DNA from: Glycine soja
Taxonomy: Eukaryota > Streptophyta > Magnoliopsida > Fabales > Fabaceae
Direction: 5' to 3'
Length of the DNA stretch: 64,000 bases
NCBI RefSeq assembly: GCF_004193775.1
Contig: NC_041018.1
Location: 34,726,913 to 34,790,912, forward strand
Shown here: positions 14,395 to 60,684 of the stretch, in pieces
Layout of the letters: each line of letters begins with the position of its first letter
Numbering within the stretch: the first letter of the stretch is position 1
Translations under genes and position numbers: made by a program
The notes under the pieces: model-generated
Database searches by the model: none
Seen by the model: the letters and a program-made list of their open reading frames with translations, nothing else
Told to the model about the DNA's origin: nothing

Positions 14395-16365
14395 TTTTTA
14401 CTTATTGCTGTCTTTAAAAAAAATGTTGCCCATTTCTTTCGAATTGTGGTGATGATGTCGATGTCCAACGGTGTGTCATTAGCAAACCACTGCAAGTATT
14501 CATAATTGTAAGTTAGTACTGCAAATATAAAAATTCAGTTCCAATTGCACTGAAGTTTATGCATACCATGGACCAGTCACTCTTTATGTCGCTGGTTATG
14601 ATGTTCCAGATCCAATGCATTACGTAATATCCACATTCATAACAGCCGGTTTAAACGTGACTCTACATATGGAAAACATTTGAACATCGTATACATTACA
14701 TAATTTCATGACTTAACTAGACAACAATAACGCATGGTACATAGCTGACTTACCTTTACTTCAATCCACTTAGGTGCAACTGCCTTAGTTTCAGGAGACA
14801 AGGTCGTCTTCAATTTTGTCATTACACTGCTTTTAAAAAACCACATCAACGCATATACAACAACATGTCAATCAATAATGACCATTAAAGAAGGCTTGTA
14901 AAAATTTATATGGTATGAGATAACCTATTAATTGTATCTTTGATATGCATATCAGGTTTCCTACGCAAGGAACAGAACCAAACAACAACATGTTGCCTAG
15001 GACACAAAACTACGAGTTGCCAATGTGCCCTGCATGTCATGCACATTAGATACAAATACACCCAAACATCATTTGAAGTATGTTTGTTAAATAACACTTA
15101 CTAATGGAAGTAAGGTCCAACGTACACCTCTCAGTCAGATTCTTTAAGCCATCTTTGAAGATATTGTTCGCATTCGCTGCGTCTATCCTTTGAACAAACC
15201 AACGACTGTGGCTCAAGGAATGCATACATGAAACCTTGACTGAATATCTGACTCCACTCATGCATATACCTATTCACATGATTTGAAAGTATTGTAGTGG
15301 ATCATGATATAGAATGAATGAGGAATAAATAAATGAAGGATTTCACTTACATTAACCATAATTGTATGACAGATATGTTCAGACTTTTGTCTCCTGCTAT
15401 TATTTCACTAACATCTGAATATGTGATGAATATCGATGCAGATGCATCTACAATTCCAAGAAAGCTCCCATCAAAGTTGATTTCAAGTGGGTTGTCGTAA
15501 ATATCGAAAATGTACTTTATCAATCCACGCAACGGATCATCTGCGTCCTCATTAGCCGACTTCGGCACATGTGCATCCTCGTTGTGTGGAATACTTTGTG
15601 GATCCTACATGGTTAATGAAAGTGGGTGAGTATTTGTACTGTAATGTATGAATGTTTTACTTTATGTATGTCAAATCAAACATGTTACCTCATCTAATAC
15701 AACTTTCACAAGGTGTGTGGGCCAAGCTACAAATGAATCGACGACCTGCTTCACATATTGTATTTCTGAGGTGGCATAGGAGACCTCAGCCTCAGGATCA
15801 ATAACTGTTTCTACACTTACCCTGACAACATCATCTGCATATGCCACTGTGTGTATGATTGAATCCCCCTCCATTATTTTCCCCATGGCCACCAACCTTA
15901 AATGAACCATAAACAAAGCAAAAACTAATGCATATAAAACACAAACTAAACGATGAACAAAACACAAACCAAACCCAACAATTACAGCTGCAAGAAAAAA
16001 CAAAAGTCCGATTAAATTGTAAGGTAATATTTCTACAAACCTTGTTGTACCATCCTTAAGCTGCACATACAGTCCCATCAATGGTATGGCATTAGCATGA
16101 TGTTCTTGTGAAGCCTGGACATTGGTAACAACATTACTTCCCTGTGTGCTGACACGCGCACCTACTTGTTGTATGTCCGGCTGAATTTGGAGTAGCTCTG
16201 GGGATCCTTTATTTGGCAACTCTTTTTTAATAGCCTCTTTCAATGCATTGGTCATTATTTCCAAGCTCCTTTTATTTTCCTCTTCTAGCTGAGTCCTCAA
16301 TTCTTCCTTAATTTGAGTCCTCAATTCTTCCCTAATCTGCCCAGTCATGTCTTCCTTAAGCCTTG
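14395..16365 (-). pseudogene. CACTA second gene, C-terminal part with Ulp1-like (C48) peptidase domain
   Basis: Minus-strand exons, in order, are: up to 16365-16040 (coiled region IREELRTQIKEELRTQLEEE, then GLYVQLKDGTTR); about 15895-15690 (GKIMEGDSIIHTVAYADDVV); 15605-15360 (DPLRGLIKYIFDIY); 15265-15110 (YMHEWSQIFSQGFMYAF); 15030-14935 (AHWQLVVLCPRQHVVVWFCS); about 14815-14755; 14662-14565 (CYECGYYVMHWIWNI); and about 14490-14395. HWQL and YECGYYVM match the His and Cys boxes of Ulp1-type peptidases commonly carried by plant CACTA elements. A stop at 15131-15133 lies in the fifth exon block. Another at 14651-14653 falls where the family has the oxyanion Gln. The gene is cut by Ogre at 16365 and continues at 35579. 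Exon ends are approximate. Confidence 0.82.
16361..16365. repeat. Target-site duplication CCTTG, left of Ogre
   Basis: CCTTG directly precedes the LTR start TGTCATACC and recurs at 35574-35578 directly after the 3' LTR. Confidence 0.95.
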
Positions 16366-17977
16366 TGTCATACCCTAATTTCGTCCGGGGATTATAATTT
16401 GATGATACACAACCTTTGATTGGCCGCTTCGAGATATTTGGCACCCTTTGTTGCACAATATGTGAAGTCCCTAGACGTGCCGAAAATCAAAAGGAAGCAG
16501 GCTTACGCAATCCGTAAAAATTCCGTAATGTGACGGAAATCAAAAGGAGGTGTTTTTCGCAATCCGTGAGTTTTCGTAACTTCTTCAAAAGCTAAAAAAG
16601 AGTAAATACATAATCCGTAAGGATTCGTAACCTTGCGGAAGGAAAATAAGTATCGTTACGAAATTCGTAAAGTTTCGTAACGTTACGGAAAAGAATTACC
16701 AAAAAAAAGTAGAAGGGGGGTGCATTTAGTAAAAAGGGGGGTACAAATAGCAATCAGACACACTTGGGCCTTCCAGATTCTTCCTCCAGAAGGCTGTTGC
16801 TTCTGGAGGAAGCAACCTTGCTCGCCTGGGCGAGCTGGGTGGCAAGCTCCTCCCCTATTTTGCTATAAATAGGGGGAGGAGTGAAGGGAGAAGAGGTTCA
16901 GCCTTCTTGGCACTTCTTATTCTCTCGAAATTGCTGAGGAAAATTATTTCCGTGAAGAAAATTCAAGCCGAGGCACTTCCGTAACGTTTCCGTAACGTTT
17001 CCGTGAGTAATTACGCGAAGATTCTCGACCGTTCTTCCACATTCATCGTTCGTTCTTCGTTTTCTTCAGTCTTCAACGGGTAAGTACCTTAAACCGAGCT
17101 TTTCAATTCATTCTATGTACCCGTGGTGGTCCACATTTTGTTTCATGTATTTTTATTCTCACTTTCATTCGCTTTCTATACCCGCTTTTGACGTGCTTAA
17201 GTCATTTATTTAAGTCATTTCTCGCCTAATCTAAAAATAAAATAAATTTCCACCGATCGTTTGAATTGTATCATCCGTTAATTTCGGTTAAAATGAATTC
17301 CGACCGTTTGGTCGTTCCGTAACCACGTTGGAAATAAAAAAAGAGGTAAAATAATAATATAATAATCAAAAAATACCTTTTAGTAAAATAAAGCGAAAAA
17401 TCAATCGGACGTTTTCTCTTTGGGATTCCTCATTCTTAAATGAATTGGCTAATAACTAAAGTGAAACTAAGGCTAAAATCAACTCGCCTAGTCAAGCTCG
17501 TCCACAAAAATAGGATTTGAAAGTTTATCATTTCAATTTCTTACCAAGTAAAATGGATCATTTTTAAGGTCCAACGCCTTAAAATGATCACCTTTCAAGT
17601 AAAAAGAATCACTTGATTCACGCATAAGAAAGAACTACGTAGGTTTGATTTCCTCTTCGATGGAGGGTACGTAGGAGCAAAAGCCCCGCTTTTGTCGACC
17701 TCAAAAAATAAAAAGAAGTAAAAGTAAAGGTAACACAATTTCCACAATTCTAAAAAATAGGCTGTTGTCCTTTGAGACAAACGTGAGAGGTGCTAATACC
17801 TTCCTCAAACGTAAATACAACTCCCGAACTTAGAATTTTCATTTTGACCGGTTTCCTTCGGTTTTCCCGACGTTTTCCACAAATAAACGTTGGTGGCGAC
17901 TCCGTGCATCTTTCCTCCTTTGGAAAGCGCACCCGTGAGCCTCGCCTTCGCTCGCCCGCGAAGGGCACGTTGCGACA
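16366..17977 (+). repeat. Ogre 5' LTR
   Basis: The LTR runs from TGTCATACCC to TTGCGACA, 1612 bp. It contains the palindrome at 16820-16835, a TATA box at 16864-16870, repeated CGTAA/TTACG-rich blocks in U3 (16490-16690) and a splice-donor-like GTAAGT at 17080. The 3' LTR differs by small indels, including an extra half-copy of the palindrome. Confidence 0.95.
16820..16870 (+). promoter_or_regulatory. Ogre LTR promoter: palindrome plus TATA box
   Basis: The inverted repeat GCTCGCCTGGGCGAGC (16820-16835) is followed 28 bases later by CTATAAATAGGGGGAG (TATA at 16864). This is the likely core promoter of the full-length RNA. In the 3' LTR the palindrome is at 34407-34422 with a degenerate second copy right after it. 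Confidence 0.75.
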
Positions 17978-18684
17978 GTTGGCGACTCCACTGGGGACTT
18001 TTTGTGAGTTAGGCCTATTTTAAGGAATTGTGGATTTGTGAAACTTCGTGTGTGCATTTGTTGAACTGTGTAAAATGTAAAAAAATGTTGTCTATTTCGC
18101 ATTCTTTACACTGCATTCTAAGCACCCACGGGTTTGAGTAAAGAAAAAAGGGGCCCTACACCCGGGTTCATGGGAATTTAAGGAGTGGAGGTGAATCTAT
18201 CATCATGCTAGGTCTCCGACTTGCTTGATAATAGTGAAACCTCGTCTAGAGCTTTCTCTCTTTATAATGTGTTGTCGCTGGTATTCCATACCGCCACAAT
18301 ATTATTATCTTGAGTGATGATACCTCTAGAAAACAGCCGTGTGAGTTATTAATTGTTGGGGAGTAGTTATTAGAGACCCCTAGATATTGTCCTATAGGTT
18401 CCCAAATAGGGGCAAAGAGCAAACACGCTCTGTGCCATTCACCCTCATGCATTTTTTTGGTAAATAGCACCAGTTTATAGTTTTGCTAGTGATGTTTGGT
18501 TTCTTTAGAGTAATACGTAACCTTTTTAATGCTACGTCGAGGCGCCATCATGCCCAAACGTAGCATTAAAGTTGGATCCCTGCGGTCTCGTATGTGTGAA
18601 TTACCCCTTTGTGTTGTTTTCTTTCCGTTTCATGCATACGCATTGCATCATTCATGTCGGAGTCTTGATCCACCCCTTTTTTAG
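17080..18684 (+). other. Putative 5' leader intron of Ogre (LTR donor to ORF1 acceptor)
   Basis: A strong donor, CAACGG|GTAAGT, lies in the LTR downstream of the TATA box. A pyrimidine-rich acceptor CCACCCCTTTTTTAG ends at 18684, six bases before the ORF1 ATG. Splicing would remove the rest of the LTR and the leader. The donor is also present in the 3' LTR (34675) and in the related lone LTR (51143). This is inferred from consensus sites only. Confidence 0.5.
17980..17998 (+). other. Ogre primer-binding site
   Basis: TGGCGACTCCACTGGGGAC begins two bases after the LTR end, and TGG at this position is the usual complement of a tRNA CCA end. I cannot name the tRNA from sequence alone; Ogre elements are reported to use tRNA-Arg. 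Confidence 0.75.
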
Positions 18685-18689
18685 GTAAA

Positions 18690-20558
18690 ATGATGGGGAC
18701 AAATCAAAACGGCAAAAGGTTTTATCAAGTCAAGGTTAAAAGTCTAGATGTCACTAGCCTCAAGGAATTGGGACGATTGATGGGACCTCTCCAAAGGCAA
18801 GCCTTCCGCAAAGTGTACGGGAAGATTCTAGATCTGACCGCAGCGGAGGTATTTACGGAAGCTGTTGTATCCCTCGCCCAATACTATGACCAGCCGTTGA
18901 GGTGTTTCACGTTTGGGGACTTCCAAATGGTACCAACTATTGAAGAGTTTGAGGAAATATTAGGATGCCCTCTTGGGGGGAGAAAACCGTATCTTTTCTC
19001 CGGCTTTCTTCCTTCCTTGAGCAAGATTGCAGCTGTGGTTGGAGATTCAGCAAAAGAGTTGGATCGCATGAAGCAAACTCGGAACGGCGTAGTGGGCCTG
19101 CCTCGGAAATACTTGGAAGGCAAGGCAAGGGATATGGCAAGCCAAGAGAAGTGGGGCCCGTTTGCGGATATTTTAGCTTTGTTGATTTTTGGGGTTGTCC
19201 TCTTTCCGAACGTGGACGGTTTGGTGGACTTAGCCGCCATTGACGCCTTCCTCGCGTATCACCACAGCAAAGAGAGTCCAGTGGTGGCTATCTTGGCAGA
19301 TTTGTTTGATACCTTTGATCGGAGATGTGAGAAAAATAGTGCACGGATTGTCTGTTGTTTACCCGCTCTCTCTGTGTGGTTGGTTTCACACTTATTCCAA
19401 CAAGACACAAGACACCCGTGTTCGCTTCAAAGCTATCGCTCATGCGCCGAAAAAGGAAGAGTCGATTGGGACCAACATTTGGCTGGGATAGGGGGTAGCG
19501 CAATCAATTGGTTTCCTCGTTGGAAGGAAGGCAAGGAAAGAGTTCTTTTCTCGTGTGGGGACTACCCTAATGTTCCATTGATAGGGACTAGGGGTTGTAT
19601 TAATTATAATCTCGCACTCGCCATAAGACAGCTAGGGTACCCCATGAGGGGAGCGCCAACCGAAGAAAGTCTCTGGCCTTTCCTTGTGAGGGATCTAGGC
19701 GCGCAAAGTCTCAAGGTTATACAAAGAATCCACAAGGCGTGGAGGAGTCCGTTGAGGAAAGACAAGGAGCTTAGGGGCATCCGTAATGGCGTCATCGGAG
19801 GTTATCATGGATGGCTAAGAATTCACACGCGAGGGTTAGATTGGCTCTCCAAGTTGAAAGTTATCGATGAGGAGAACTTTGAAGCTCCGGAGGAAGATGA
19901 AGAAGTCCGAGCTCTAAAATTGGAGCTAGGGAAGGCAAGACTCGCCAAGGAGAAGTTCAAATCAGCTGCTACACACATCCGGAAAGAGTGCACCGAGTTA
20001 CAAGAGGAAAACGCGGCCACTGCAAGAGCCCTTGAACAAGAAACTAAAAGGGCCCGCAAAGAGGAATATGGCCGAGAGAAATTCCGAGGAGCATTGTGGG
20101 GTAGCAACAGTGAGCTCAAGCTCCGAAGAGAGGAAAGAGACCGGTCACGGGTGCATGGCATGATCTTAAAAGAAGAGTTAGCTGCGTGCGCAAGATCCAA
20201 GAGGAGTTTGGCTTAACACTTGGAAGCCACGGAGCAAAGCATGCTAGCTATCATAGGGCAATACAAGGAAGAGTTGAACCAGTCTGTGGCCCATGAACAA
20301 AAGCTAGTGGAGGATTTTGCACAAGTGTACGCCGAAAAAGAAGCAAGAGGGAGGGTGATTGATGCATTGCATCAAGAAGCGACTATGTGGATGGATAGGT
20401 TCGCCTTGACCTTGAATGGAAGTCAAGACCTCCCGCGTCTATTAGCCAAAGCAAAAGCCATGGCCGAAGTGTGTACGGCCCCCGAGGAGATTCATAGGCT
20501 AATCAATTACTGTCAACACATGATAGATTTGATGGCCCACATAATTAGAAACCGTTAG
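18690..20558 (+). pseudogene. Ogre ORF1 (plant-mobile-domain-like protein with coiled coil)
   Basis: One frame of 622 codons is broken only by a TAA at 20214-20216, probably from CAA. The N-terminal ~370 residues carry FTFGDFQMVPTIEEFEEILG and WGPFADILALLIFGVVLFPN, the style of the plant mobile domain-like proteins found in Ogre ORF1. The C-terminal ~240 residues are highly charged and helical (EKFKSAATHIRKECTELQEE), probably a coiled coil. ORF1 precedes gag in Ogre elements and its function is unknown. A consensus splice acceptor ends at 18684, which favours the ATG at 18690 (a second ATG follows directly at 18693). No catalytic motif is seen. Confidence 0.82.
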
Positions 20559-20798
20559 GTTCTCTCGTAACACCTTTGTATAATCTTGGCTAGATGAAAG
20601 CTTTGTTCTTTTTATAAAATGAGAAGTTTTGAACTCATCATGTTATCTAAAAAACCCTTGGGGTGGATCCAAGTGTTCCGATCATTCATTTGCATATTCA
20701 TGTTTTGGTGGCATACTCACCATTGTTTATCTCTTTAGGAATTTCATCATAACTAAGAAAACACCAAAGCACCCCTATAACACTCGATCCAGAAAAAT

Positions 20799-23700
20799 GG
20801 ATAATGAAGAGGGCGTGCAGGAACAGATGAAGGCCGATCTATCGGCTTTAAAAGATCAAATGGCTTCCATCTCGGAGGTCATGTTAAAACTCTAGAAAAA
20901 TATAAAGGATAAAACCACGGCAACCGCCTCCAGTACGGTTAGGGAAGCGGAGCCGGTGCTGCAGCCCGTCTTAAATTCGGGCCGAGACAGAAACATAACC
21001 GTGTTTGGTCGAAGGTATAGTCCGCAAGCTTATCCTTATGGCTTGCCTCCGAACTTCACCCCCCGTGCCACCCCGGAAGATTTAAGCCAAGCCCCTACTT
21101 TCGAGGGGCAACTCCTACCTTATGACGACTATCCCGGGCAAGACGATGAGGAAGGAGATACCCATCTTGGCCCCCTGCTCCACCTCAAAGATTCGTCCCC
21201 CCATGAACTACCCCAACCGAACATAGTCCGCCATATCCCGGCTTCCCCCACACCCGTAAAGGAATCTGTTCCCTTCGCAGAAGATAAGGGAAAGATTGAG
21301 GCGCTTGAAGAAAGGTTAAGAGCAGTCGAGGGCCTTGGCAATTACCCATTCTCGGATTTGGCGGATTTATGTCTCGTACCCAACATCGTCATCCCTCCCA
21401 AGTTCAAAGTACCAGACTTTGATAAGTACAAAGGGACGACATGTCCAAAAGGGCATCTCCGGATGTATTGCCGAAAGATGGGGGCGTATTCTGCGGACGA
21501 AAAGTTGTTGGTCCATTTCTTTCAAGACAGCTTGGCCAGAGCAGCTGTAGCATGGTATACCAATCTGGAAGCTTCCCAGATCCGATCGTGGAAAGACTTG
21601 GAAACTGCCTTCATTAGGCAGTACCAGTACAATACGGACATGGCTCCAGATCGGAACCAGCTTCAGAGTATGACTAAGCGAGAGCATGAGTCCATTAAGG
21701 AATATGCCCAAAGATGGAGAGATCTTGCAGCCCAAGTCATACCGCCCATGACGGAGAGGGAGATGATCACAATTATGGTAGATACGTTACCCACGTTCTA
21801 CTATGAAAAGCTGATAGGCTACATGCCAGCTAACTTTGCGGATCTCGTCTTCACCGGAGAAAGGATTGAATCTGGACTACGAAAAGGCAAGTTCGAATAT
21901 GCTGCCAATATGGCCCCCAACAACAACAGAAGAGCCCCAGTAGTGGGCGCAAGGAAAAAGGAAGGAGACGCCCACGCGGTCACCACCACCCCGACGTGGA
22001 TGAAAGTACCCCAAAATATCCAAAGCTCATACCAACCCAATCCCCCAAATTTTTTAATCCGAGCCGAGAATTCCCTCTCGACTCAAGTAAAAGGAACACC
22101 CGCAGCAGAAAGAGCGCCGGCCCAACGCACAGCTCCAGCCGCTCCCCGGCCAGTTAATAATACAGCCCCCGACGCGACTTATCAATATGCACAGCACCCG
22201 CCCCTGAAAGACAACTTCCCTCCTATTCCCATGGCATACTCCGAGTTATGGCCTTCATTATTGGAGAATCATTTGGTGGTGGCCATACCCGGGAAGGTCC
22301 TCCAGCCACCCTACCCCAAATGGTATGACCCGGGTGCCAAGTGTGCGTACCATAGTGGAGTTCCCGGACACAACATTGACTCCTGCCTCCCGTTCAAATA
22401 TAAGGTACGACACCTAATCAGTGCCGGTTGGCTATCGTTTCAAGAGGAAGGCCCAAATGTTAAAACCAACCCGCTAGCTAGTCATGGAGGGGCTAGCGTG
22501 AACGCCGTCAAAGAGGATGGGCCATTGCGGGCAAAGAGATTAGGAGAGGTAGCTACTTCTAGACGCTTCATCTATCAATCACTGCAAGCGGCGTGCATGG
22601 TCTCCCGTGGCGGAGGCGAAAGGGACGAATGTTTGTTTCACCTCGGGGAGTCGCACGACATGGAAACCTGTCCCGCGGTAGAAGAATTGCTTCAGCGGCT
22701 CATGGACTGGGGGCAGCTTGAAGTGTCCATAGGAGGGAGGGAAGAACCACAAATTTGCATGCAGTCGGCAGAGAAGAAGGTTCCTCTAACCCCCAAGGCT
22801 CTAGTGATATGTTTTACTAGAAAAGGGACCGGCTCCACACCCATATACCCCCGGGCGGCGCCCAAGCCAACGCCATTTGCATATCAAAGTAATAAGGCTG
22901 TTCCGTGGAAGTATACCCCTCCCGCGTCCAGCGAAAGAGTTGCAACCGAAGTTGACTCCCTATCAGCTAAGGTAACCAACATCACCGGCCTCAGTGGCGT
23001 AACCCGCAGTGGTCGGGTGTTCGCTTCCCCTCACCCGGCGGAATTGCCCTCCAAAGGGAAAGCGTCCATGGTCCAAGAGCCCACAGACATAGCCACCCCC
23101 TCTAAAAAAGTAGATCCTCCAATGGCAAGGGGGGCTGAAAAGAAAGAAGGTCTTCAAGGAAAAGCAGTGACTTTGGAAGAGGCCCATGAGTTCCTCCGCC
23201 TCATCCAGCAGAGCGAGTTTAAGGTAGTCGAGCAACTGAATAAAACTCCAGCAAGGATCTCTTTGCTTGAACTACTCATAAACTCCGAGCCTCATCGTGC
23301 ACTGTTGATGAAGGTCCTTAACGATGCCCACGTAGCACATGATATCTCAGTAGAGGGTTTCGAGGGCATCGTTAATCATATAACCACCAACAATTATATC
23401 GCGTTTACGGAAGAAGAGATTCCCGTTGAGGGGAGAGGACACAACAAGGCTCTACATGTGTCGGTGAGATGTATGGACCACGTTGTCGCAAAGGTACTTA
23501 TCGACAATGGATCAAGTTTAAATGTAATGCCGAAGACCACTTTGGAAAAGCATCCTTTTAGTGCGTCACGTTTAAAACCGAGCTCGATGGTGGTGCGAGC
23601 CTTTGATGGTACTCGGCGGGAAGTGATGGGGGAAATCGACATTCCCATTCAGATAGGCCCCCACACTTGCAATGTGGTGTTTCAAGTAATGGATATAAAT

Positions 23701-24332
23701 CCTGCCTATAGCTGCCTCTTGGGAAGACCTTGGATTCATGCCCTAGGAGTGGTCCCTTCAACGCTTCACCAGAAATTGAAGTTCGCAGTGGGTGGACTTT
23801 TAGTGATAGTGTCGGGTGAAGAGGATATGTTAGTGAGCTGCCCCTCCTCCGCATCGTACGTAGAAGCGGCGGAAGAATCATTGGAAACGGCTTTCCAATC
23901 CTTTGAGGTGGTGAGCTGCGCCTCTGTGGAACCAAGTCCGTCGCTACCTTCTCTCTCCAAAGCGGCCATAATGGTGGCGCTTGTTATGCTCAGGAACGGA
24001 TTTGAGCCCGGAATGGGTCTAGGCAAGGGCTGCCTCGGGAATGCCGACGTGGTCGATATCAAGGGAAATCCATACAAGTATGGATTAGGGTATGAACCCG
24101 GGATGCCGGGGAGGAGGAACGTGCCGTCAAGATTTCGGGCGGATAGGGTATGGCCCGGCCGTATTAGCCAGTGTTTCACCAGCGTTGGAATGGTGTCCGA
24201 GGAGGAGGTGGCCGCAATAGAAGAGGAGTTCCCTCAAGACCCACCAAGTTTTGTGCAACCATGCCACCCCGATTCCCAAGTGGGGAACTGGCGCGTGATA
24301 AGCCAGTCAGAAGTCTATACCCCTGATTCAAT
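20799..24332 (+). pseudogene. Ogre gag-protease with G-patch
   Basis: The frame is open upstream from 20629, but the likely start is MDNEEGVQEQ at about 20797-20799, just after HPYNTRSRK; a possible acceptor (TTTATCTCTTTAG) ends near 20739. A stop at 20893-20895 interrupts it. Capsid sequence follows (FDKYKGTTCPKGHLRMYC, AAVAWYTNLE, EYAQRWRDLAAQV), then a zinc-finger-like CAYHSGVPGHNIDSC and a second CLFHLGESHDMETC. The aspartic protease motif is VLIDNGSSLNVMP (about 23497-23535). Near the end comes a G-patch (GFEPGMGLGKGCLG, about 24000-24040; YGLGYEPGMPG). Only the G-patch-bearing exon end at 24332 joins pol, through the intron described separately. Confidence 0.88.
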
Positions 24333-24484
24333 GTAATTAGAGCCTATAGATTTCCTTTTTCTTTTGTTTTGTGAAACCTACCTTATTAAATAAACAAAGA
24401 GATCTTGTTTCATCTGTTCTTGCGGCTCCACCTTTTCTCATATCATTTTGCATGTTTTTGTTTCTTTTGTCTTGTTTGGTATAG
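24333..24484 (+). other. Ogre intron between protease and reverse transcriptase
   Basis: GTAATTAG at 24333 and a pyrimidine-rich acceptor (TTTGTCTTGTTTGGTATAG) ending at 24484 define a 152-base intron. Gag-protease is in one frame and pol in another. Removing exactly this stretch joins a split codon and puts YEGRFFEDP in frame with the protease-side exon. Unspliced RNA stops two codon positions after the donor, at the TAA at 24334-24336. This arrangement is a known Ogre feature. Confidence 0.85.
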
Positions 24485-27400
24485 ATATGAGGGTCGATTC
24501 TTTGAGGATCCTAACAACGAGGGTTTGACAATCGATTTCGATCGAGATATAAGCCAAACCATAAATGAGGAAGAGGAAGAGGACGTCCTGTCACCAGAGT
24601 TGGAGAGGTTGGTCGCTCAGGAAGAACGTGAAATGAAACCTCACCAAGAAGAAATCGAATTGGTAAACTTGGGGACCACGGAGGAAAAGAAAGAAGTAAA
24701 GGTAGGAACCGGTATGACCGCGCCTATCCGCCAAGGCTTGATAACCCTTCTTGAAGAGTATCAAGATGTCTTTGCATGGTCATATCAAGACATGCCCGGT
24801 CTAGATTCCGACATTGTGCAGCATAAGTTGCCTTTGAATCCTGGGTCTTCCCCGGTTAAGCAAAGGTTGCGAAGAATGAGGCCCGAGATGTCTTTAAAAA
24901 TTAAAGAAGAAGTAAGGAAGCAGTTTGATGCAGGTTTCTTAGCTGTGGCGCAGTACCCGGAGTGGGTGGCCAACATTGTCCCAGTCCCGAAAAAGGACGG
25001 CAAGGTTCGAATGTGTGTAGACTAACGGGACTTGAACCGAGCCAGTCCTAAAGACAATTTTCCCCTGCCACACATTGATATATTGGTAGATAATACAGCC
25101 AAATTCGCCCTTTTCTCATTTATGGATGGTTTATCGGGGTATAATCAAATAAAGATGGCACCCGAAGATGTAGAGAAGACCAATTTCGTCACCCTATGGG
25201 GGAAATTCTTCTATAAAGTGATGGCCTCCGGGCTGAAAAATGCTGGGGCAACCTATCAGCGTGCCACGGTGGCATTGTTCCATGATATGATGCATATGGA
25301 AATAGAGGTCAACGTAGATGACATGATTGCCAAGTCTCGGACTGAGGACGAACACCTTGTCAATCTGCGTAAGCTGTTTGGAAGGTTGCGGAAATACCAA
25401 TTAAAACTAAACCCAACCAAATGCACCTTTGGGGTAAAGTCGGGGAAGTTGCTAGGATTTATCGTAAGTCAGAAAGGGATAGAGATAGATCCCGAGAAAG
25501 TGAAGGCCATCCTTGAAATGCCGAAACCACACACGAAGAAGCAGGTTCGGGGTTTTTTGGGCAGGTTGAATTATATCGCGAGATTTATCTCGCAACTCAC
25601 CCCTACCTGTGAGCCCATTTTTAAGCTATTACGTAAGAACCAGGCGGTCCTGTGGAACAGTGACTGCCAAGAGGCCTTCGAGAAGATCAAACAGAGTCTC
25701 GCAAATCCTCCGGTGCTCATGCCACCTGTAACAGGAAGACCTTTTTTCCTGTACATGACCGTGTTGGACGAGTCTATGGGGTGCGTGTTGGGTCAGCACG
25801 ATGATTCTGGGAAAAAGGAGCAAGCCATCTACTATCTAAGCAAGAAGTTTACCGCATGTGAGATGAATTACTCAATGCTGGAAAGGATGTGTTGCGCTCT
25901 GGTATGGGTATCACATCGGCTTAGGCAGTACATGCTCAGCCATACCACGTGGCTTATTTCCAAAATGGATCCCGTGAAATACATCTTTGAAAAATCGGCC
26001 CTCACAGGATGAATCGCTAGGTGGCAGGTACTATTATCTAAATTCGATATCGTTTACGTCACCCAAAAGGCGGTAAAGGGAAGTGCCTTAGCGGATTATT
26101 TGGCCCAGCAACCCCTCCAGGATTATCGGCCGATGCACCCTGAGTTCCCAGATGATGATATCATGGCCCTGTTTGAAGAGAAGCGGACGCACGAGGACAT
26201 AGACAAATGGATTGTTTGCTTCAATGGGGCATCTAATGCTTTGGGCCACGGAGTAGGGGCGGTCCTTGTATCCCCGGATGATCATTGTATTCCTTTTACG
26301 GCTAGGCTAGGTTTTGATTGTACCAACAATATGGCCGAGTACGAAGCATGCGCCCTCGGGGTTCAGGCGGCCATTGATTTTGATGTAAAACTACTCAAGG
26401 TGTATGGAGACTTAGCTTTGGTGATACGCCAGTTGAAAGGAGAATGGGAAACTAGGGATCCGAAGTTGATACCCTATCAAACTCATATCTTGAGGTTAGC
26501 CAAGTACTTTGACGACATTTCTTTCCACCACATACCTCGGGAAGAGAATCAAATGGCTGATGCATTAGCCACCCTGGCATCCATGTTTCAACTTGCCCCA
26601 CACGGGGATCTGCCGAACATCGAATTCAAATCTCAAGGCAGGCCGGCAAATTGTTATGCAATAGAGGAAGAGCGGGATGGGAAACCGTGGTATTTCGACA
26701 TCAAACAGTATGTTGAGTACAAAGAATACCCACCAGGGATTTCTGACAATGACAAAAGGACGTTGAGGAGATTGGCTACAGGTTTCTTTGTAAGTGGTAC
26801 CATCCTGTACAAACGAAACCACGACATGACCCTCATACGATGCGTAGATGCCAAAGAGGCGAACTTCATGATTGAGGAGATCCACGAGGGTTCCTTTGGA
26901 ACACATGCCAATGGGCATGCTATGGCCAGAAAAATCCTTAGGGCCGGTTATTATTGGCTCACCATGGAAAGCGATTGCTGCGCTCATGTAAGGAAATGTC
27001 ATAAATGTCAGGCATACGCGGACAATGTCAATGTTCCGCCACATCCTCTGAATGTTATGTCCGCCCCTTGGTCTTTTTCCATGTGGGGGATAGATGTCAT
27101 TGGGGCCATCGAACCCAAAGCGTCGAATGGTCACCGCTTCATTCTTGTGGCGATAGATTACTTCACCAAATGGGTCGAAGCAGCTTCTTATACTAATGTC
27201 ACAAGGAATGTGGTAGTTAGATTCATAAAGAAGGAGCTGATTTGTCGATACGGACTCCCCAGGAAGATCATTACTGACAATGGCACCAATCTGAACAATA
27301 AGATGATGCGGGAAATGTGCGAGGACTTCAAGATCCAGCATCATAACTCTACCCCTTATCGGCCAAAGATGAATGGAGCTGTAGAGGCTGTGAATAAGTA

Positions 27401-27935
27401 TATTAAGAAGATTTCTCAAAAGATGATAGTGTCATACAAAGATTGGCATGAGATGTTGCCTTTCGCCCTGCACGGATACAGAACCTCGGTGCGAACTTCT
27501 ACTGGGGCAACGCCGTATTCCTTGGTTTATGGGATGGAGGCAGTACTCCCATTTGAGGTAGAAGTTCCTTCTCAGAGGATAATAGCAGAATCCGGCCTAG
27601 AAGAGTCGGAATAGGCTCAAGCACGCTACGACCAACTCAACCTCATTGAAGGTAAGCGTTTGACAGCCATGAGCCATGGGCGTCTGTATCAACGAAGAGT
27701 AAAGAACGCATTCGACAAGAAGGTACGTCCGCGCAAGTTCAACGAGGGGCACCTCGTGCTGAAAAAGATGTCCCACGCTGTTAAGGATAGTCGAGGCAAG
27801 TGGGCCCCGAATTATGAAGGACCTTTCGTGGTGAAAAGAGCTTTTTCTGGGGGTGCTCTGATACTCACCAACATGGATGGCGAGGAGTTGCCCTCGCCCG
27901 TGAACTCCGATGTAGTTAAACGATATTACGCTTGA
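24485..27935 (+). pseudogene. Ogre pol: RT, RNase H, archaeal-type RNase H, integrase
   Basis: A single frame is broken by three stops (25023-25025, 26010-26012, 27612-27614). RT begins near 24700 (LLEEYQDVFAWSY, VPKKDGKVRMCVD), with the first stop replacing the Tyr of VDYRDLN. The catalytic box reads NVDDMIAKS (about 25312-25338), where the family has YVDD. RNase H follows (YYLSKKFTACEMNYSMLE), then a second, archaeal-type RNase H (NNMAEYEACALGVQAAI, IPREENQMADALA, 26320-26580) typical of Tat/Ogre. Integrase has HHCC (HVRKCHKCQAYAD) and a core with GIDVIG, ITDNGTNL and NGAVEAVNK. The tail includes WAPNYEGPFVVKRAF. The enzymes would act in the particle and nucleus; this copy is dead. Confidence 0.92.
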
Positions 27936-28620
27936 AGTCTGGGGCAATCGAGAGGACCGCTGCATGTTTTTATTTCCGAGTTTTTCTCGTTCTTCTTGGT
28001 TTCCTCTAGGGATTCCCATTCACTGTATTTGTCTCGCTTCTTTGAAAAGAAAAGATGGGCGAGGTTTCAGTCCTCCCTTTGGTTTCAAACCTTGTGTTTT
28101 AGATTTGTTTTAACTTGAGCCCTCTTCGCTCGGTGTATGGGGTGCCCCAAACGCTTATTTAAAATTGAATCTAACCAGCCCTCACTAAAAGAAAGTCATC
28201 GCGTTAGGAACATTCATACATGCACATACACATGCATATTTTGTGGTAACAGGGGCAGGGCCTTCTTACGTCACGGTTAGAAGTCGAGACAAGTTAACTA
28301 CGGAAATCAACCAAGGTAAGACGATGACCGGACACAATTGACCATGGATTTTTGTTTCCTACTTGCAGGTACATAGGGACGGATGCAAGTGGGGATAGGG
28401 TTACGACCGACCGATCGTTGCCCCTTCCCGGCGCTAAACAAGCAGAGAACGTCGCTGCAAGGCAGCCCAGTATCCTTTGCAATTCGTAGTTTCTTTTACT
28501 ATTGTTTTGTTTTAAATAAGTAATCGACACCTAATTCTAATTTAAGTAGGTTCAAGTAGGCAAACGCTAACCTATAAGGAAGGAGGAGACATGGTTAAGG
28601 TTCCCCTCAAAAAAAAAAAA
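27936..28620. other. Region between Ogre pol and internal promoter-like segment
   Basis: No coding sequence is seen. The stretch runs from the pol stop to an A-rich run at about 28607-28620. Confidence 0.6.
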
Positions 28621-28631
28621 ATGGCAGGTTA

Positions 28632-28671
28632 GCTCGCCTGGGCGAGCAACCCCTGCACCCAAATTATAAAA
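28632..28671 (+). promoter_or_regulatory. Internal LTR-like promoter before the Ogre 3' ORF
   Basis: GCTCGCCTGGGCGAGC at 28632-28647 is identical to the palindrome of this element's LTR (16820-16835). It is followed 17 bases later by a TATA box (ATTATAAAAATG, TATA at 28665), then by a purine- and C-rich leader and a splice donor at 28823. The same order (palindrome, TATA, leader, GTAAGT) occurs in the LTR. Promoter activity is inferred. Confidence 0.6.
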
Positions 28672-28822
28672 ATGAGGGAGGGGAACGTTTTTTGTATCCA
28701 AAAAACTTCCCCCCCCCCTCATTCAAAAGATAAAGAACACGAAGGCTTGCGTTTTTGGCTCCCCTAAGCCACTTTTGATCGCGTTTTGCTTTCGTTTTTG
28801 GTGTTTCTATTCACTCCAACAA

Positions 28823-29854
28823 GTAAGTATTCAACCCTTGATGTTTTTAGCTTCCCATTGGTATATTTTCTTCATCTTTTGGTACTCTAAATTGTGAGAA
28901 TGTGCTTATATTTGTGGGGCAGTTTTGGGTTGTTTTTATGCTTGATTTTTTTGAGTTGGGGATTTGAATGAGAAGGCCTTAGGCCTATGTTGTATTCTGA
29001 AGCAATGGGGCATGCCACATTGCCCCCATTCTCTGGCAATTTATGTCCAAACATGCGCCCATCAAGTGCTCGGTGAAATGCCCCAATGATATATGAATGT
29101 GATTTTGCAAAATTGGGATGGTGGGGCTGTTTTATGTATGTAGAGACAGCATAGGAAAGTTAAAATAGACGCCCAAATGCAATCCCAAGCTTAGGAACCC
29201 AAACTTTTTAGCTTCAATGCAAGAAAACATACTCATGACTAGGAACCCAAAATTTGGTTTTAGAATTAGAAAAGCATGAAAATAGGGACTTGCTTGTAAG
29301 AATTTGGGCTGCCCCATGATTGGTACTTTGCACCTAAGTAACGTGGGAAATGCTTTTCAGTGGTGTGTAGATATATGTGTAAATATAAGGGGCATAAAAT
29401 TCCTCGCCAAGTATGAATAATTGTTTTCCTAAATGAATGTATGATAGCGTGGAATGCCCATTTGAATACAAATATGTGCAGGATGTAATTAGCTTTCCAA
29501 TATGCATATAAATAAATATGAGTGAAACAATAAAAATTTGTATGGTGTACTTCAACTGTATGTAGGTAGTTTGTGATAGCAAATGTTTAGGATATAAATT
29601 AGGTGTAAAGTTTGACGCAACACCTTGAGCATGAAAGTGTGTTTTCTTTTTCAGAATGTATATAGGTGTATGGCAATTAGAATATGTTAGATGTTCTTGT
29701 ATGTTGACATGAGTAATAGGATACTTTCTACACATGCGCGTGTGCATAAATGGATTACATGAGTTTGGTCTAAATCAGAGGGGTTAGCACAACATTTTTG
29801 CGTTAAGATAAGCATTATCTTGTAAAACTAACTTTCAAATGTTTGTTCTCGCAG
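28823..29854 (+). other. Putative leader intron of the Ogre 3' ORF
   Basis: A donor ACTCCAACAA|GTAAGTATT at 28823 and an acceptor AATGTTTGTTCTCGCAG ending at 29854, three bases before ATG 29858, frame a 1032-base intron that is T-rich and free of long frames. It would place the ATG directly behind the leader that starts below the TATA box at 28665. Confidence 0.6.
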
Positions 29855-29857
29855 GAG

Positions 29858-31117
29858 ATGGCCCGGAGGAAACTTGCTTCAAAGAGATCCAGGAAGGATA
29901 AAGCGGCCGAAGGAACCAGTTCCGCTCCCGAGTATGACAGTCACCGCTTTAGGAGCGCTGAACACCAGCAGCGCTTCGAGGCCATCAAGGGATGGTCATT
30001 TCTCCGGGAGCGACGCGTCCAGCTCAGGGACGATGAGTATACCGATTTCCAGGAGGAGATAGTTCGTCGGCGGTGGGCATCACTGGTTACCCCCATGGCC
30101 AAGTTCGATCCAGACATAGTCCTCGAATTTTATGCCAATGCTTGGCCTACAGAGGAGGGCGTGCGAGATATGAGGTCCTGGGTGAGAGGTCAGTGGATCC
30201 CGTTTGATGCAGATGCTATCAGCCAGTTCCTGGGATACCCTTTAGTGCTGGAAGAGGGTCAGGAGTGCGAGTATGGCCAGAGGAGGAACCGGTCCGATGG
30301 GTTCGATGAGGAGGCCATCGCCCATTTGCTATGTATACCGGGGCAGGATTTTGCCCGGATTGCTGCCGGGAGACGGGTGCGGATCATGCGCACCAACATG
30401 ACCACCCTGACTCAGATCTGGATGACTTTGCTGCTCAGCAACATCCAGCCCAGCGATCATAATTCCGACCTCCCCTTGCCAAAGTGTCAGCTGGTGTACG
30501 CAATCCTGACACGGATGAGCATTCACGTGGCTCAGTTAATCGCTGATGCCATCTATCTATTTGCAGGTATGGCACCTACCAGGCACCCTTTGGACCCGGA
30601 TAAGTCCAACAGGGCCCTGGGATTTCCCGCCTTGATCACAGGACTCTGCCAGTCATTCAGAGTCCCCGTCGCACCTAGCAAGGTGATTCGACCGCCCATC
30701 ACCCGAGCTTTTATTGAGAAGTATTGCACACAGAGACAGGCCCAGGGGAATGCTCCGCAGGCCGCTGACACGCCGCCACCTCATCAGGCTAGTCCAGCTG
30801 GATCGTTTGATACGGAGCAGTATTTGCGGCATTTGATTCGCTAGCAGGCGGCCAACCGCCGGGCTCATGTACAGACCCATGATTGTCTTTACCAGATGAG
30901 CCTCAGCCTGCAGTGCCAGGGTTTTACTTCTTTTCCGTGCCCTACTCCGGACCAGTTCAGGGCAGAGGTCGCATGGCCTGGAGATTGGCCTGAGGCCCGG
31001 GCGGGAGAGGCGCCAACAGAGGCACCAGCAGAGGCTCCCGACGAGGCAGATGAGGCCCGCGAGGACGAGGAGATGACCGATTTACTTGATTTCTTAGGAG
31101 GGAGCGAGGCCACATGA
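29858..31117 (+). pseudogene. Ogre 3' accessory ORF (putative plant transposon protein domain)
   Basis: The frame runs from MARRKLASKRSRKDKAA to 31117 (420 codons) with one TAG at 30842-30844, probably from CAG. The N-terminus is basic and nuclear-signal-like. The core (FEAIKGWSFLRERRVQL, MAKFDPDIVLEFYANAW, WIPFDADAISQFLGYP, LPKCQLVYAILT, LGFPALITGLCQSFRVPV) looks like the domain called putative plant transposon protein. The C-terminus is rich in Ala, Glu and Pro and ends in an acidic tail (DEADEAREDEEMTDLL). There is no signal peptide or clear membrane segment, so an envelope role is not supported. The ATG at 29858 is chosen because it directly follows the acceptor; an earlier ATG at 29843 lies inside the intron. 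The Sire element carries a similar ORF at 54743-55879. Confidence 0.78.
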
Positions 31118-33022
31118 TTGGGAGATCCCTTGATCCATATTTCTTTTTGTTTCCATTTTTCCTGTTATATATTTTTGTTTGACTAAGGGACTAACGTTTG
31201 TTTCATGTTGATTGGCTTTTGTTTTGTACATACATATCGTTTGAGTTGTTACGTCGGTACTTGTTTCGTTATTGTCGATAATGTTTGTTGAAATTCCGGA
31301 ACCGTGTAGAGTTTTTCATTTAGGAACGTCGTCCTAAAAAATAAAATGAACCAAAAATCCTAATAAAAAGAAAGAAGCGTTGTGAATAAAAGTCATGTTC
31401 GTAAAGAAAAGAAAGAGGTTTTTATTTATATATGTGTAAAAGGAAAGTGTGTATAAAAGGATTCTTGTGTGTAAATGATGCGTGGAAAGGAATTCTTGTG
31501 TGTGTGAGCAACGAGTGTACATGAAGAAACTTTTGTATGAAACATAAGGGTGTTGGGAAAAATGGAAAAATCTTTGAATGTAAATAGGATTAGTATATAG
31601 ACCGTGTGACGTAAAGAGAAAGAGTTCCAATGCGCGTATAGAAAAAGTTTGTCATGTATAAGAATGTAGATGTACAAAGAAAAGTTTTCCTCATAAAGGA
31701 CCACAGGTGTATAATTTTGTGAATATATAAAGATGAAAGAAAAAGGAAAAAGAAAGAAAGACCGCGAAGGTCGATGTGTTATAGTTAAGAAGTATAAATC
31801 ATTCGTAAAGAGCAGACGTATCTTCTGGAAACAAGGGACTGATGCTAAGAGTTTATTTTCCGGAAAAACCGAGATAAGAATGGATGAATTCATTGAACTG
31901 ATTAAAGAACATAATTGGGAAACGTTGGGTCTGTTTGTGTAAATTCCCAATCGTAGTATCACAATGCCATAAACGGGATGCTTGAGTGCCCACCTGGCTG
32001 TAGCCATGACTAATTTTGCACGTTGTTTTCAAATCATCATCGTCATGCGTGCCTTATGGAATAATATGGAAGTTCGGCCCGAAATCGACACCTTGACACC
32101 CAAATTTGTTTCGCCCCAGATATCAAGATTGGGTTCCCACGATAAAAGACCCCATTGAAACACAACCTCAGACCTTTTTGAACCTTGTCTTGTAAAAAAG
32201 AATCCTCATTCCTTCCCCGAAGCAAAGGACAGCGGAATCTCCTCAAGGGAGAGCGAATAAAATGCTAAAACCCAATTTCCCAAACAAAGGGATGGGGAAG
32301 GAGAAGTGAAAAGAAAGAAGAGGAATAAATGGAAAGAAAGAAAAAGAAAAAAGATGACAATAAAGAAAAGAACAATAAAAAGAAATAAAAGGAAGGATTC
32401 CCAGTTAAAGGTCGAAAAGAAGTAAAAAGGGAAAAGAAGCAATTCTCGATCAATGAAAGAAAGAGAATGGAAAATCTTCAGATCAGATAAATTCTCGGCA
32501 AGGTAAGTGACTGCCGGCAAAGGGAAAACCATTTTTGGTGTCTCTTCCCTTCAGATTGCCATTCAAAGTCGTTCTCGACTGGCATATCCCACCCCACCTG
32601 AACAAAGAGGAAAAGACCGAAACACCCAGCTTCCTCTCCAAAAACACCACCCTCGAGAAAATCCTATTGGTCCGTGATCGTACATTTGATCTTTGATTCG
32701 ATAGGAAATCGTGTGCAAAATAAAGTCATGGTGCAATTATGGTTTGGGAATAGGATGAAACACTTGCCTGTGTGAGTTTTATACACTATGAGTGATTTAT
32801 TTTCAGCTTAGCCCGATGTTTCCCCTGCATGTTCATTTAAAAGCTAAAAGTTGACATCCTGCCCTTCATTCTCGGTTACAAGGAAGATTACCCTTGGCAC
32901 AAGTATATTGTTTCTCTAAGATATGGTGCTCTCGCGAATGATTTATTTTTCTTTACAAAAAGCATGTTTGCCTTTCAGGGAGAAAAACCCGATGGACCGT
33001 TCGGTCCTGCCAACCCTTTTTC
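31118..33022. other. Ogre 3' untranslated region, purine-rich, no gene
   Basis: The stretch has long A/G-rich segments (31330-31800 and 32280-32470) and no credible protein. Short frames here are low-complexity shadows. Confidence 0.65.
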
Positions 33023-33712
33023 GGAGCCCCATGAATTGCGTTTTCGTTCATGCGTCCTCCACCTTCGAGTTTGGAGCTATGTTTCATGATTGCCTAAGTG
33101 CGGACCCTCAAGGCAATCCTCCATTCTCCCCCCCTTTTTTTTTGGAGCCCCATGAATGTTATTGCCTAGCGCTGTTCATGTGTCCTCCACCTTCGAGTTT
33201 GGAGCTATGTTTCATGATTGCCTAAGTGCGGACCCTCAAGGCAATCCTCCATTCTCCCCCTTTTTTTTTTGGAGCCCCATGAATGTTATTGCCTAGCGCT
33301 GTTCATGTGTCCTCCACCTTCGAGTTTGGAGCTATGTTTCATGATTGCCTAAGTGCGGACCCTCAAGGCAATCCTCCATTCTCCCCCTTTTTTCGGAGCC
33401 CCATGAATGTTATTGCCTAGCGCTGTTCATGTGTCCTCCACCTTCGAGTTTGGAGCTATGTTTCATGATTGCCTAAGTGCGGACCCTCAAGGCAATCCTC
33501 CATTCTCCCCCTTTTTTTGGAGCCCCATGAATGTTATTGCCTAGCGCTGTTCATGTGTCCTCCACCTTCGAGTTTGGAGCTATGTTTCATGATTGCCTTA
33601 GTGCGGACCCTCAAGGCAATCCTCCATTCTCCACCTTTTTCGAAGCCCCATGAATGTCATTGCCTAGCGCTGTTCATGTGTCCTCCATTATCAAGCGCGG
33701 AGCCTCTGGTGA
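33023..33712 (+). repeat. Tandem repeat, about 124 bp unit, five full copies plus a partial
   Basis: Units begin at about 33023, 33144, 33271, 33395, 33519 and 33642 with GGAGCCCCATGAAT. They contain TGTCCTCCACCTTCGAGTTT and end with a C-rich then T-rich run of variable length. The first unit is the most diverged and the last is cut short. Satellite-like arrays in the 3' region are known in Ogre elements. Confidence 0.95.
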
Positions 33713-33940
33713 CTGGGAAATATGTTATTCTGTAATTTTCCGGGTCGGTTCCTTCGCCAAACATGTGTATATGTGTATATGTATATTATATTCGTTGTTC
33801 TTGTTGTTGTTTGTATTTTGTTTTGTGTTGTACAACAAAAAGGAAGGAGTAGAGACGAGAATCGTCATCACGGAAAGGGCAGGATGGACGAAATCAGTGT
33901 CTTATCTTTGCTTTCCTCTTATCTCCGATGAGAGGTAAGT

Positions 33941-33953
33941 AAAGAGGGGCAAC
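33941..33953 (+). other. Ogre polypurine tract
   Basis: AAAGAGGGGCAAC directly precedes the 3' LTR start and is the expected primer for plus-strand synthesis. Confidence 0.8.
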
Positions 33954-35573
33954 TGTCATACCCTAATTTCGTCCGGGGATTATAATTTGATGATACACAA
34001 CCTTTGATTGGTCGCTTCGAGATATTTAGCACCCTTTGTTGCACAATATGTGAAGTCCCGAGACGTGCCGAAAATCAAAAGGAAGCAGGCTTACGCAATC
34101 CGTAAAAATTCCGTAATGTGACGGAAATCGAAAGGAGGTGTTTTTCGCAATCCATGAGTTTTCGTAACTTCTTCAAAAGCTAAAAAAGAGTAAATACATA
34201 ATCCGTAAGGATTCGTAACCTTGCGGAAGGAAAATAAGTATCGTTACGAAATTCGTAAAGTTTCGTAACGTTACGGAAAAGAATTACCAAAAAAAGTAGA
34301 AGGGGGGTGCATTTAGTAAAAAAGGGGGTACAAATAGCAATCAGGCCCACTTGGGCCTTCCAGATTCTTCCTCCAGAAGGCTGTTGCTTCTGGAGGAAGC
34401 AACCTTGCTCGCCTGGGCGAGCTGAGCTCGCCTGGGCAAGCTGGGTGGCAAGCTCCTCCCTTATTTTGCTATAAATAGAGGGAGGAGTGAAGGGAAAAGA
34501 GGTTCAGCCTTCTTGGCACTTCTTATTCTCTCGAAATTGTTGAGGAAAATTATTTCCGTGAAGAAAATTCAAGCCGAGGCGCTTCCGTAACGTTTCCGTG
34601 AGTAATTACGCGAAGATTCTCGACCGTTCTTCCACATTCATCGTTCGTTCTTCGTTTTCTTCAGTCTTCAACGGGTAAGTACTTCAAACCGAGCTTTTCA
34701 ATTCATTCTATCTACCCGTGGTGGTCCACATTTTGTTTCATGTATTTTTATTCTCGTTTTCATTCGCTTTCTATACCCCCTTTTGACGTGCTTAAGTCAT
34801 TTATTTAAGTCATTTCTCGCCTAATCTAAAAATAAAATAAATTTCCACCGATCGTTTGAATTGTATCATCCGTTAATTTCGGTTAAAATGAATTCCGACC
34901 GTTTGGTCGTGCCGTAACCACGTTGGAAATAAAAAAAAGAGGTAAAATAATAATATAATAATCAAAAAATACCTTTTAGTAAAATAAAGCGAAAAATCAA
35001 TCGGACGTTTTCTCTTTGGGATTCCTCATTCTTAAATGAATTGGCTAATAACTAAAGTGAAACTAAGGCTAAAATCAACTCGCCTAGTCAAGCTCGTCCA
35101 CAAAAATAGGATTTGAAAGTTTATCATTTCAATTTCTTACCAAGTAAAATGGATCATTTTTAAGGTCCAACGCCTTAAAATGATCACCTTTCAAGTAAAA
35201 AGAATCACTTGATTCACGCATAAGAAAGAACTACGTAGGTCTGATTTCCTCTTCGATGGAGGGTACGTAGGAGCAAAAGCCCCGCTTTTGTCGACCTCAA
35301 AAAATAAAAAGAAGTAAAAGTAAAGGTAACACAATTTCCACAATTCTAAAAAATAGGCTGTTGTCCTTTGAGACAAACGTGAGAGGTGCTAATACCTTCC
35401 TCAAACGTAAATACAACTCCCGAACTTAGAATTTTCATTTTGACTGGTTTCCTTCGGTTTTCCCGACTTTTTCCACAAATAAACGTTGGTGGCGACTCCG
35501 TGCATCTTTCCTCCTTTGGAAAGCGCACCCGTGAGCCTCGCCTTCGCTCGCCCGCGAAGGGCACGTTGCGACA
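33954..35573 (+). repeat. Ogre 3' LTR
   Basis: The LTR is 1620 bp from TGTCATACCC to TTGCGACA and collinear with 16366-17977. It has an additional degenerate palindrome copy (34424-34441) and lacks one CGTTTCCGTAA unit present at about 16980-17000. CCTTG follows at 35574. Confidence 0.95.
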
Positions 35574-35578
35574 CCTTG
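35574..35578. repeat. Target-site duplication CCTTG, right of Ogre
   Basis: This matches 16361-16365. With one copy and the Ogre element set aside, the CACTA reading frame is continuous. Confidence 0.95.
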
Positions 35579-36445
35579 CAACAACTTCATCTAGTTGTTG
35601 TTGGCTGGTGGATGTGGACGAGCTGCTGCATGTCCTTGATGCCCTTCCGTAGTACTGAGTAATAGTCACACCTGAGCCTGCTGCCCGAACGCGACCCCCA
35701 TGGTCAGGTCGGCCAATGGCAGTGTTCAGTATGTCTTGCCGACCATGGGGTACAAACGAACCCTGTGTTACCTGCTCTTCTAAGGAGTCCTACACAAAAC
35801 AAGTGACACAAAAATACACAACATGCAGTCATTGTCATTACAAAATACTTAAACATATGAACATTGCAACATATTGGTGAACCTACTATTTTATCTGCAA
35901 TTTCCTGTGCGGACTCAGATGTCATATTGCCAACAGCCCTGGTCCGAGCAACCTTCCACTTAACATGTCTTTTTATTGGAGATGGGGGTTCACTCAACAA
36001 TGCTTCCTCTTGTATCCTTTTTCGTTTCTGGTCTAACAATTTCTTCTCAAGCAAATCATATCCCCCACGTGAAAGTACGTGGGGGCAGTCGTTGTGTTTT
36101 TGAATTGATTGTGCTCGTTTCCTAATACCCTGTAATGTGGCATACATAATTGCGGAGACTTTTTCCAAATTAAAATAATCAAATTGGTAAACAAATATTC
36201 ATTTTAAGTTACGATAAACAGATTCAACTAACCTCCCAGTTAGGTGTGAGCCGGGTTTCTTCAAATTGTTTCCATGCTTCAGGATCTAGTCCATATTTTG
36301 TCACAACATCCTGCGTTTGTTGACCTTCACTCTTAGCAAACACAAATTTGCTAGTCAATGTGGACTTAAATTGCCACCATCTCGTCGCTACTGTTGACAT
36401 AACCTTCGTCTTCACCTTCGTAGCTTCTGCGATATCAAACTTTGC
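35579..36445 (-). pseudogene. CACTA second gene, middle exons (Transposase_24-like)
   Basis: Minus-strand exons are about 36440-36230 (STVATRWWQFKSTLTSKFVF, KYGLDPEAWKQFEETR), 36165-35885 (LQGIRKRAQSIQKHNDCPHV, LSRGGYDLLEKKLLDQKRKR) and 35790-35574 (VPHGRQDIL, TSTSQQQLDEVV). These are typical of the plant En/Spm Transposase_24 (TNPA-like) proteins thought to bind subterminal repeats. The last exon runs in frame into 16365 on the other side of Ogre. The N-terminal exon is at 40706-40990, beyond the intron that holds the LINE and the HSP90 fragment. Confidence 0.82.
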
Positions 36446-54277: not shown

Positions 54278-54293
54278 ATCTCCCCCTTTTTGA
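54278..54293 (-). other. Sire polypurine tract
   Basis: On the minus strand CAAAAAGGGGGAGAT abuts the 3' LTR start TGTAGATGC. Confidence 0.85.
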
Positions 54294-60632: not shown

Positions 60633-60670
60633 CTTTTTCTTGAAGCTTCTAAACTTTATACAAGAATGAA

Positions 60671-60682: not shown

Positions 60683-60684
60683 CT

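Follow-up and report, generated by a model that had tools for sequence, protein, structure and literature searches.

A candidate LTR-like internal promoter with a leader intron upstream of ORF3 in a GmOgre-type retrotransposon of Glycine soja

The expression of extra sense genes in plant LTR retrotransposons is an old open question, to which the answers put forward include an internal promoter, splicing and stop-codon suppression (PMC2829016). The closest precedent for the case described here is found in Sireviruses, whose LTR palindromes are met again ahead of the env-like gene (77 of 79 linker copies), which their authors took as support for the internal-promoter hypothesis, the promoter itself not being conclusively identified (PMC2829016). 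Maize Grande is, like the element described below, a plant Ty3/gypsy element with an extra gene in the interval from pol to the 3' LTR; its gene23 has a promoter upstream but runs antisense, whereas ORF3 of the soybean element GmOgre is sense (PMC7264820). Sunflower Athila 14 carries an extra sense ORF, ORF(+), which shares with ORF3 a partial Transposase_32 (PF20167) similarity, but it belongs to the Athila lineage and the available part of its description covers neither promoter nor splicing (PMC11728184). Foamy viruses, which are animal retroviruses and are likened here by layout and not by sequence comparison, have a second, internal promoter besides that of the LTR (PMC7828637). The pericentromeric soybean family Gmr9/GmOgre comprises more than 3,200 intact copies (PMC3305785, PMC6431247), and the legend of Figure 1 in PMC3305785 already names ORF3, as a protein of unknown function.

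The window analysed here is the whole 64,000-nucleotide stretch of Glycine soja DNA, in which an LTR retrotransposon spans 16366-35573. Over 1600 aligned positions its LTRs of ~1.6 kb show only 23 differences, and the insertion is therefore a young one. A domain search identified ORF1, gag-protease, reverse transcriptase with RNase H, a second RNase H, integrase and a 3' ORF (ORF3). RVT_3 lies after RT_RNaseH and before Integrase_H2C2 and rve, hence the extra RNase H of the Ogre lineage is present, which REXdb defines by this additional RNase H between RNase H and integrase and also by an intron between the gag-pro and RT ORFs (PMC6317226); these two ORFs are separated here by 785 nt (24337-25121). 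A 124-base minisatellite lies between ORF3 and the 3' LTR. The order ORF1, gag-pol, sense ORF3 and minisatellite is that published for Gmr9/GmOgre (PMC3305785, Figure 1 legend), in which gag-pol has two exons with an intron and the minisatellite precedes the 3' LTR (PMC3305785, PMC6431247). By its gene order and encoded proteins, and not by DNA identity to the family sequence, the host element is a Glycine Gmr9/GmOgre-type copy. Since the published order already lists ORF3, neither the element nor ORF3 is new.

The protein searches agree with this assignment. The best match of ORF3 overall was an ENA protein with 97% identity, while the best named relatives were Glycine max and Glycine soja proteins (94% over the full length; another 95% over 91%), with several full-length Glycine relatives at 90-94% identity; ORF1 was 95% identical to a Glycine protein over its full length. 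A protein named as Enterobacter (P0232) showed 89% identity over 71% of the soybean Ogre ORF1 and probably stems from plant DNA that contaminated a bacterial assembly. At the DNA level, no relatives were confirmed in viral contigs or in bacterial and archaeal genome contigs, and no matches were found in plasmids, E. coli genomes or phages. The fold predicted for ORF3 had a mean pLDDT of 35 (29-row alignment) and was not usable. An origin of ORF3 as a duplicate of ORF1 was considered and rejected, as a profile comparison of shallow alignments (29 and 20 sequences) returned a probability of 0.2% and there was no sequence support. The coordinates of the main features are collected in Table 1.

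Table 1. Features of the GmOgre-type element and of the proposed ORF3 leader, in window coordinates.
Feature	Position	Strand	Remarks
5' LTR of GmOgre-type element	16366..17977	+	target-site duplication CCTTG at 16361-16365 and 35574-35578
Palindrome, LTR copy	16820..16835	+	exact
LTR TATA box, TATAAATA	16864..16871	+	followed by G-rich GGGAGG
LTR leader donor GTAAGT	17080..17085	+	also in 3' LTR (34675) and divergent LTR (51143)
Proposed acceptor before ORF1	18683..18684	+	weak, rank 57 in element; ATG at 18690
ORF1 (DUF7745, PF24924)	18690..20216	+	in-frame stop at codon 509; frame goes on to 20558
Palindrome upstream of ORF3	28632..28647	+	exact copy of the LTR one; corresponding site encodes peptide in P0043
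TATA box of proposed internal promoter, TATAAAAA	28665..28672	+	motif
Inverted repeat / hairpin around expected start site	28671..28723	+	-28.8 kcal/mol, z -5.6
GGGAGG after TATA box	28676..28681	+	common to three LTRs in the window
Proposed exon 1	28695..28822	+	start put ~30 nt after TATA; no ATG; homologous exon in P0043
Proposed leader intron	28823..29854	+	1032 nt, GC 0.36, 46 ATG
CTAAC branch-point-like site	29828..29832	+	~20 nt before acceptor AG
Exon 2 with ORF3 (PF20167, Transposase_32)	29855..31117	+	ATG 29858; in-frame stop at codon 329, after 328 codons; same frame then open to 31117
3' LTR	33954..35573	+	palindromes 34407-34422 and 34426-34441; TATA 34470; donor 34675

A preliminary description of this locus had placed a TATA box at 28665, a GTAAGT donor at 28823 and an acceptor shortly before ATG 29858, and every one of these coordinates proved right, the acceptor AG (29853-29854) being followed by GAG and then the start codon; the intron of ~1.03 kb that it implied measures 1032 nt. 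The motifs themselves, and their rarity in the window, could be observed directly. TATAWAWR was followed by GGGRGG within ~20 nt at only four of 107 sites (both strands, whole window), the GGGRGG motif having been chosen after inspection of the sites, and one of these four was the site at 28665, the other three being LTR TATA boxes, namely those of the element's own two LTRs and of a divergent related LTR at 49979-52041. When TATAWAWR sites were paired with donors of score 8.19 or higher lying 100-250 nt away, five pairs resulted, three of them with ATG-free intervals, namely both LTRs of the element and the ORF3 leader, compared to a mean of 0.05 and a maximum of 1 in 40 block-wise shuffles. 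As 8.19 is the score of donor 28823 itself, this count is partly after the fact. Lowering the donor threshold to 6.5 gave six ATG-free intervals (shuffle mean 0.78, maximum 8), relaxing the TATA motif to TATAWA at 8.19 gave three (mean 0.50, maximum 2), and relaxing both gave ten (mean 2.12, maximum 6). The lack of an ATG in exon 1 is weak on its own, as 44% of shuffles were likewise ATG-free. Within 16300-35700, Rfam showed no match at gathering score. Judged from sequence statistics, the layout upstream of ORF3 is real and non-random.

Splice sites were scored with approximate Arabidopsis-like base frequencies. On this approximate scale, acceptor 29854 was the fourth strongest of the element and donor 28823 the fourteenth, while LTR donor 17080 ranked seventh and the ORF1 acceptor 18684 was far down the list. 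The top two donors of the element, 32503 and 33935, both lie downstream of ORF3, and one of them adjoins the polypurine stretch before the 3' LTR; a further good acceptor at 20738 (score 8.14) is found ~60 nt before ATG 20798, upstream of the listed gag ORF. The proposed intron is poorer in GC than ORF3 (0.36 versus 0.57), and due to its many ATGs an unspliced leader would hardly permit scanning to ORF3.

Relatives of ORF3, many of them annotated in Glycine genomes, were then compared as proteins. Among the 120 matches listed of 327, 55 start at the Met of ORF3, 29 are extended upstream and 36 are without that N-terminal motif. A glutamate (E) directly precedes the Met in 25 of the 29 extended relatives among these 120, as would be expected if exon 2 opens with GAG-ATG. 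Some of the 25 are unspliced genomic read-throughs (e.g. P0011), from which it can at least be seen that other copies have a similar intron end. The most informative relative was P0043, the annotated Glycine max gene GmHk_19G054514, which is compatible with exactly the 28822-29855 junction: its residues 6 to 70 align to 28626-28822 of the window, up to the last bases before donor 28823, with the palindrome read as the peptide SSPGRATP, and after this exon-1 part the protein runs straight into E-M. The alignment scored 92 against a shuffle mean of 23 and a maximum of 33 (60 shuffles), and still 66 with the palindrome scrambled, so that exon 1 is directly seen to be homologous to a stretch of an annotated gene, albeit by protein-level evidence that fits either an intron in the locus or an intron missing from the DNA. 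A protein database search with exon 1 of P0043 recovered only P0043 itself among 28 candidates. The TATA box is not kept in P0043, the sole informative relative; however, TATAA holds a stop codon and a gene model in frame needs a change there, which makes this loss a biased count of one.

Extensions of at least 10 residues were found in 20 relatives among the 120 matches listed, and 16 of these map upstream onto the element; P0011 and P0056 (read-through or unmapped) and P0015 and P0098 (no clear mapping) were not counted. Donor 28823 is used by one of the 16 mapped gene models (P0043). In the other 15, the upstream part ends at ~28470 (P0022, P0037, P0044), just past 28478 (P0036, P0081), at 28594 (P0014, P0064), 28628 (P0018) or 28642 (P0017), inside the proposed intron (P0023, P0069, P0082, P0096), in pol (P0071) or in gag-pro (P0066). 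The recurrence of the acceptor is thus observed directly, and because the gene models share the acceptor and differ in the donor, acceptor 29854 is well supported and donor 28823 only moderately.

The LTR had been said to show the same series of elements, with a palindrome at 16820, a TATA box at 16864, a donor at 17080 and an acceptor at 18684 before ORF1, and this was found to be so; the leader exon of the LTR is likewise ATG-free. When the ±60 nt around the LTR donor were compared with the ORF3 leader, none of 616 control windows scored as high, and four of 616 did for the whole LTR leader. For the divergent LTR, 22 of 616 controls scored as high in the donor region and 89 of 616 over the leader. 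Aligning the segment with the LTRs therefore gave a mixed result, in that the core motifs match while similarity beyond them is weak: the ORF3 leader shares the core motifs of the LTR, and its wider sequence may be built on the LTR as well. The divergent LTR at 49979-52041 is of GmOgre type, with a TATA box at 50932 and a donor at 51143 but without the palindrome, and its flanks ACCAAC and ATACTG form no obvious target-site duplication. If the leader intron of the LTR (17080-18684) is used, it removes the primer binding site stretch (17978 on) and would set the ORF1 mRNA apart from genomic RNA. It would also be an intron upstream of gag, of which a 2005 paper on soybean Diaspora stated that none had been reported for any LTR retroelement (PMC1142308).

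The explanation I favour, for which the chances appear evenly balanced, is that ORF3 is read from its own LTR-like RNA polymerase II core promoter and with a leader intron. The TATA box at 28665 and the G-rich element would form an active core promoter laid out as in the LTR, RNA would start near 28695, and a short ATG-free exon would extend to 28822. The leader intron would be spliced out in the plant, joining exon 1 to GAG-ATG at 29855, and ribosomes would then reach ORF3 by scanning, avoiding the 46 intron ATGs. A wider version, which is put forward tentatively and on balance would not be expected to hold, is that GmOgre carries two sense modules of one design, LTR/ORF1 and internal/ORF3, in a foamy-virus-like manner and independent of Sireviruses. 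Each module would consist of TATA and GGGRGG, an ATG-free leader exon, a GTAAGT donor, a long ATG-rich intron and an acceptor just before the start codon. In the preliminary description the 3' ORF was said to look like a self-contained transcription unit on the LTR pattern. What stands of this are the TATA/G-rich combination otherwise confined to LTRs in this window, the ATG-free exon 1, the strong donor and acceptor with CTAAC, and a Glycine max gene model that fits the same junction; what does not carry over is the role of the palindrome, which is dispensable in the LTR, and the wider LTR similarity, which is weak.

The palindrome needs to be weighed separately. Its 16 bases, GCTCGCCTGGGCGAGC, occur exactly at 16820, 28632 and 34407, and once more with a single mismatch at 34426, which bears out the claim that the LTR palindrome recurs exactly upstream of ORF3. 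Searching both strands with up to three mismatches returned eight rows, four of which are the same sites counted on the opposite strand, against 0.04 expected from shuffles. With a probability that falls a little short of even, the palindrome is a short repeat module of soybean, unrelated to the promoter and without a role in it, a reading that is compatible with any of the others. In agreement with it, a 19-base unit containing the palindrome is in tandem at 34407-34443 in the 3' LTR, while it is single in the otherwise near-identical 5' LTR, the same unit appears in a table for the Rps1-k locus of soybean (PMC2330051), and P0043 implies a tandem pair before its ORF3 with a spacer identical to that of the 3' LTR pair; this shared tandem pair may have come about by exchange between the copies in the LTR and the internal ones. 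Moreover, the divergent LTR has kept TATA and donor but lacks the palindrome, so the palindrome is a non-essential part of the LTR and looks like a later addition. The 16-mer alone is also not specific in a large database, as 48 viral contig stretches contain it and none of these matched the window in blastn at E 1e-5. Against an unrelated module speaks the placement, since from the first base of the palindrome it is 44 nt to the TATA box in the 5' LTR and 33 nt to the one upstream of ORF3, and so does the fact that Sireviruses pair LTR and pre-env palindromes likewise, with the palindrome before the LTR TATA and before a sense gene that lies after pol and ahead of the 3' LTR (PMC2829016). The likeness to Sireviruses does not extend much further: they are Ty1/copia elements with CpG islands, each carries 8-32 copies of the palindrome, and the core is CGG-CCG in 12 of 13 (PMC2829016), whereas the present element is Ty3/gypsy, has one or two palindromes per site with a CGCC..GGCG core and is low in CpG, with no CpG islands around the palindromes (observed/expected CpG 0.21-0.43). 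None of the Sirevirus hallmarks (eight or more copies, a CpG island, the CGG-CCG core, Ty1/copia) is thus seen here, while the soybean element has a TATA box and splice sites in addition to the pairing.

A second alternative is an env-like mode of expression, in which RNA arises from the 5' LTR only, splicing joins donor 17080, or one further downstream, to acceptor 29854, and the TATA box before ORF3 is incidental. I regard this as the most serious rival, though as less likely than not, and several observations fit it. The donor of the LTR is a strong one that three LTRs have in common, the leader exon of the LTR has no ATG, there are further strong sites before ORF3 (acceptor 28368, rank 2; donor 28316, rank 4), and varied upstream exons are joined to the ORF3 acceptor in the gene models, including those from gag-pro and pol. 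It leaves unexplained, however, why the TATA and GGGRGG of the LTRs recur in the window only before ORF3. An LTR-derived exon 28368-28822 would furthermore bear ATGs at 28383, 28591, 28621 and 28672 before ORF3, which a direct splice from 17080 to 29854 would escape. Finally, a fossil layout, with ORF3 and its upstream region silent and the gene models being predictions on dead copies, is improbable: ORF1 and ORF3 are both stopped in frame here, the pol region is broken into pieces and the gene models fuse unrelated neighbours (P0017 starts in an antisense LTR), but the insertion is young and 55 of the 120 matches listed of 327 begin at ORF3's own Met.

In the PMC-archived texts consulted, neither a promoter nor a leader intron was found to be mentioned for ORF3 of GmOgre. 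While ORF3 itself is known already, the LTR-like second promoter and its leader intron, as read here from the DNA, are likely to be a new proposal, and for a high-copy soybean family the exact nucleotides of a candidate internal promoter and leader intron can now be named. If ORF3 does have a separate promoter, it could be made without genomic RNA, from mRNAs that could not be copied as genomes, and the family could leave thousands of dispersed promoters across the soybean genome.

Other mobile elements were found in the same window. A Copia-type element lies on the minus strand at 53822-61774, with an open polyprotein of 1177 aa and flanking repeats that are 97-98% identical. A transposase of the tnp2 family (Transposase_21) is encoded at 41961-43466, and the stretches 42976-43275 and 52044-52343 are 81% similar to each other.
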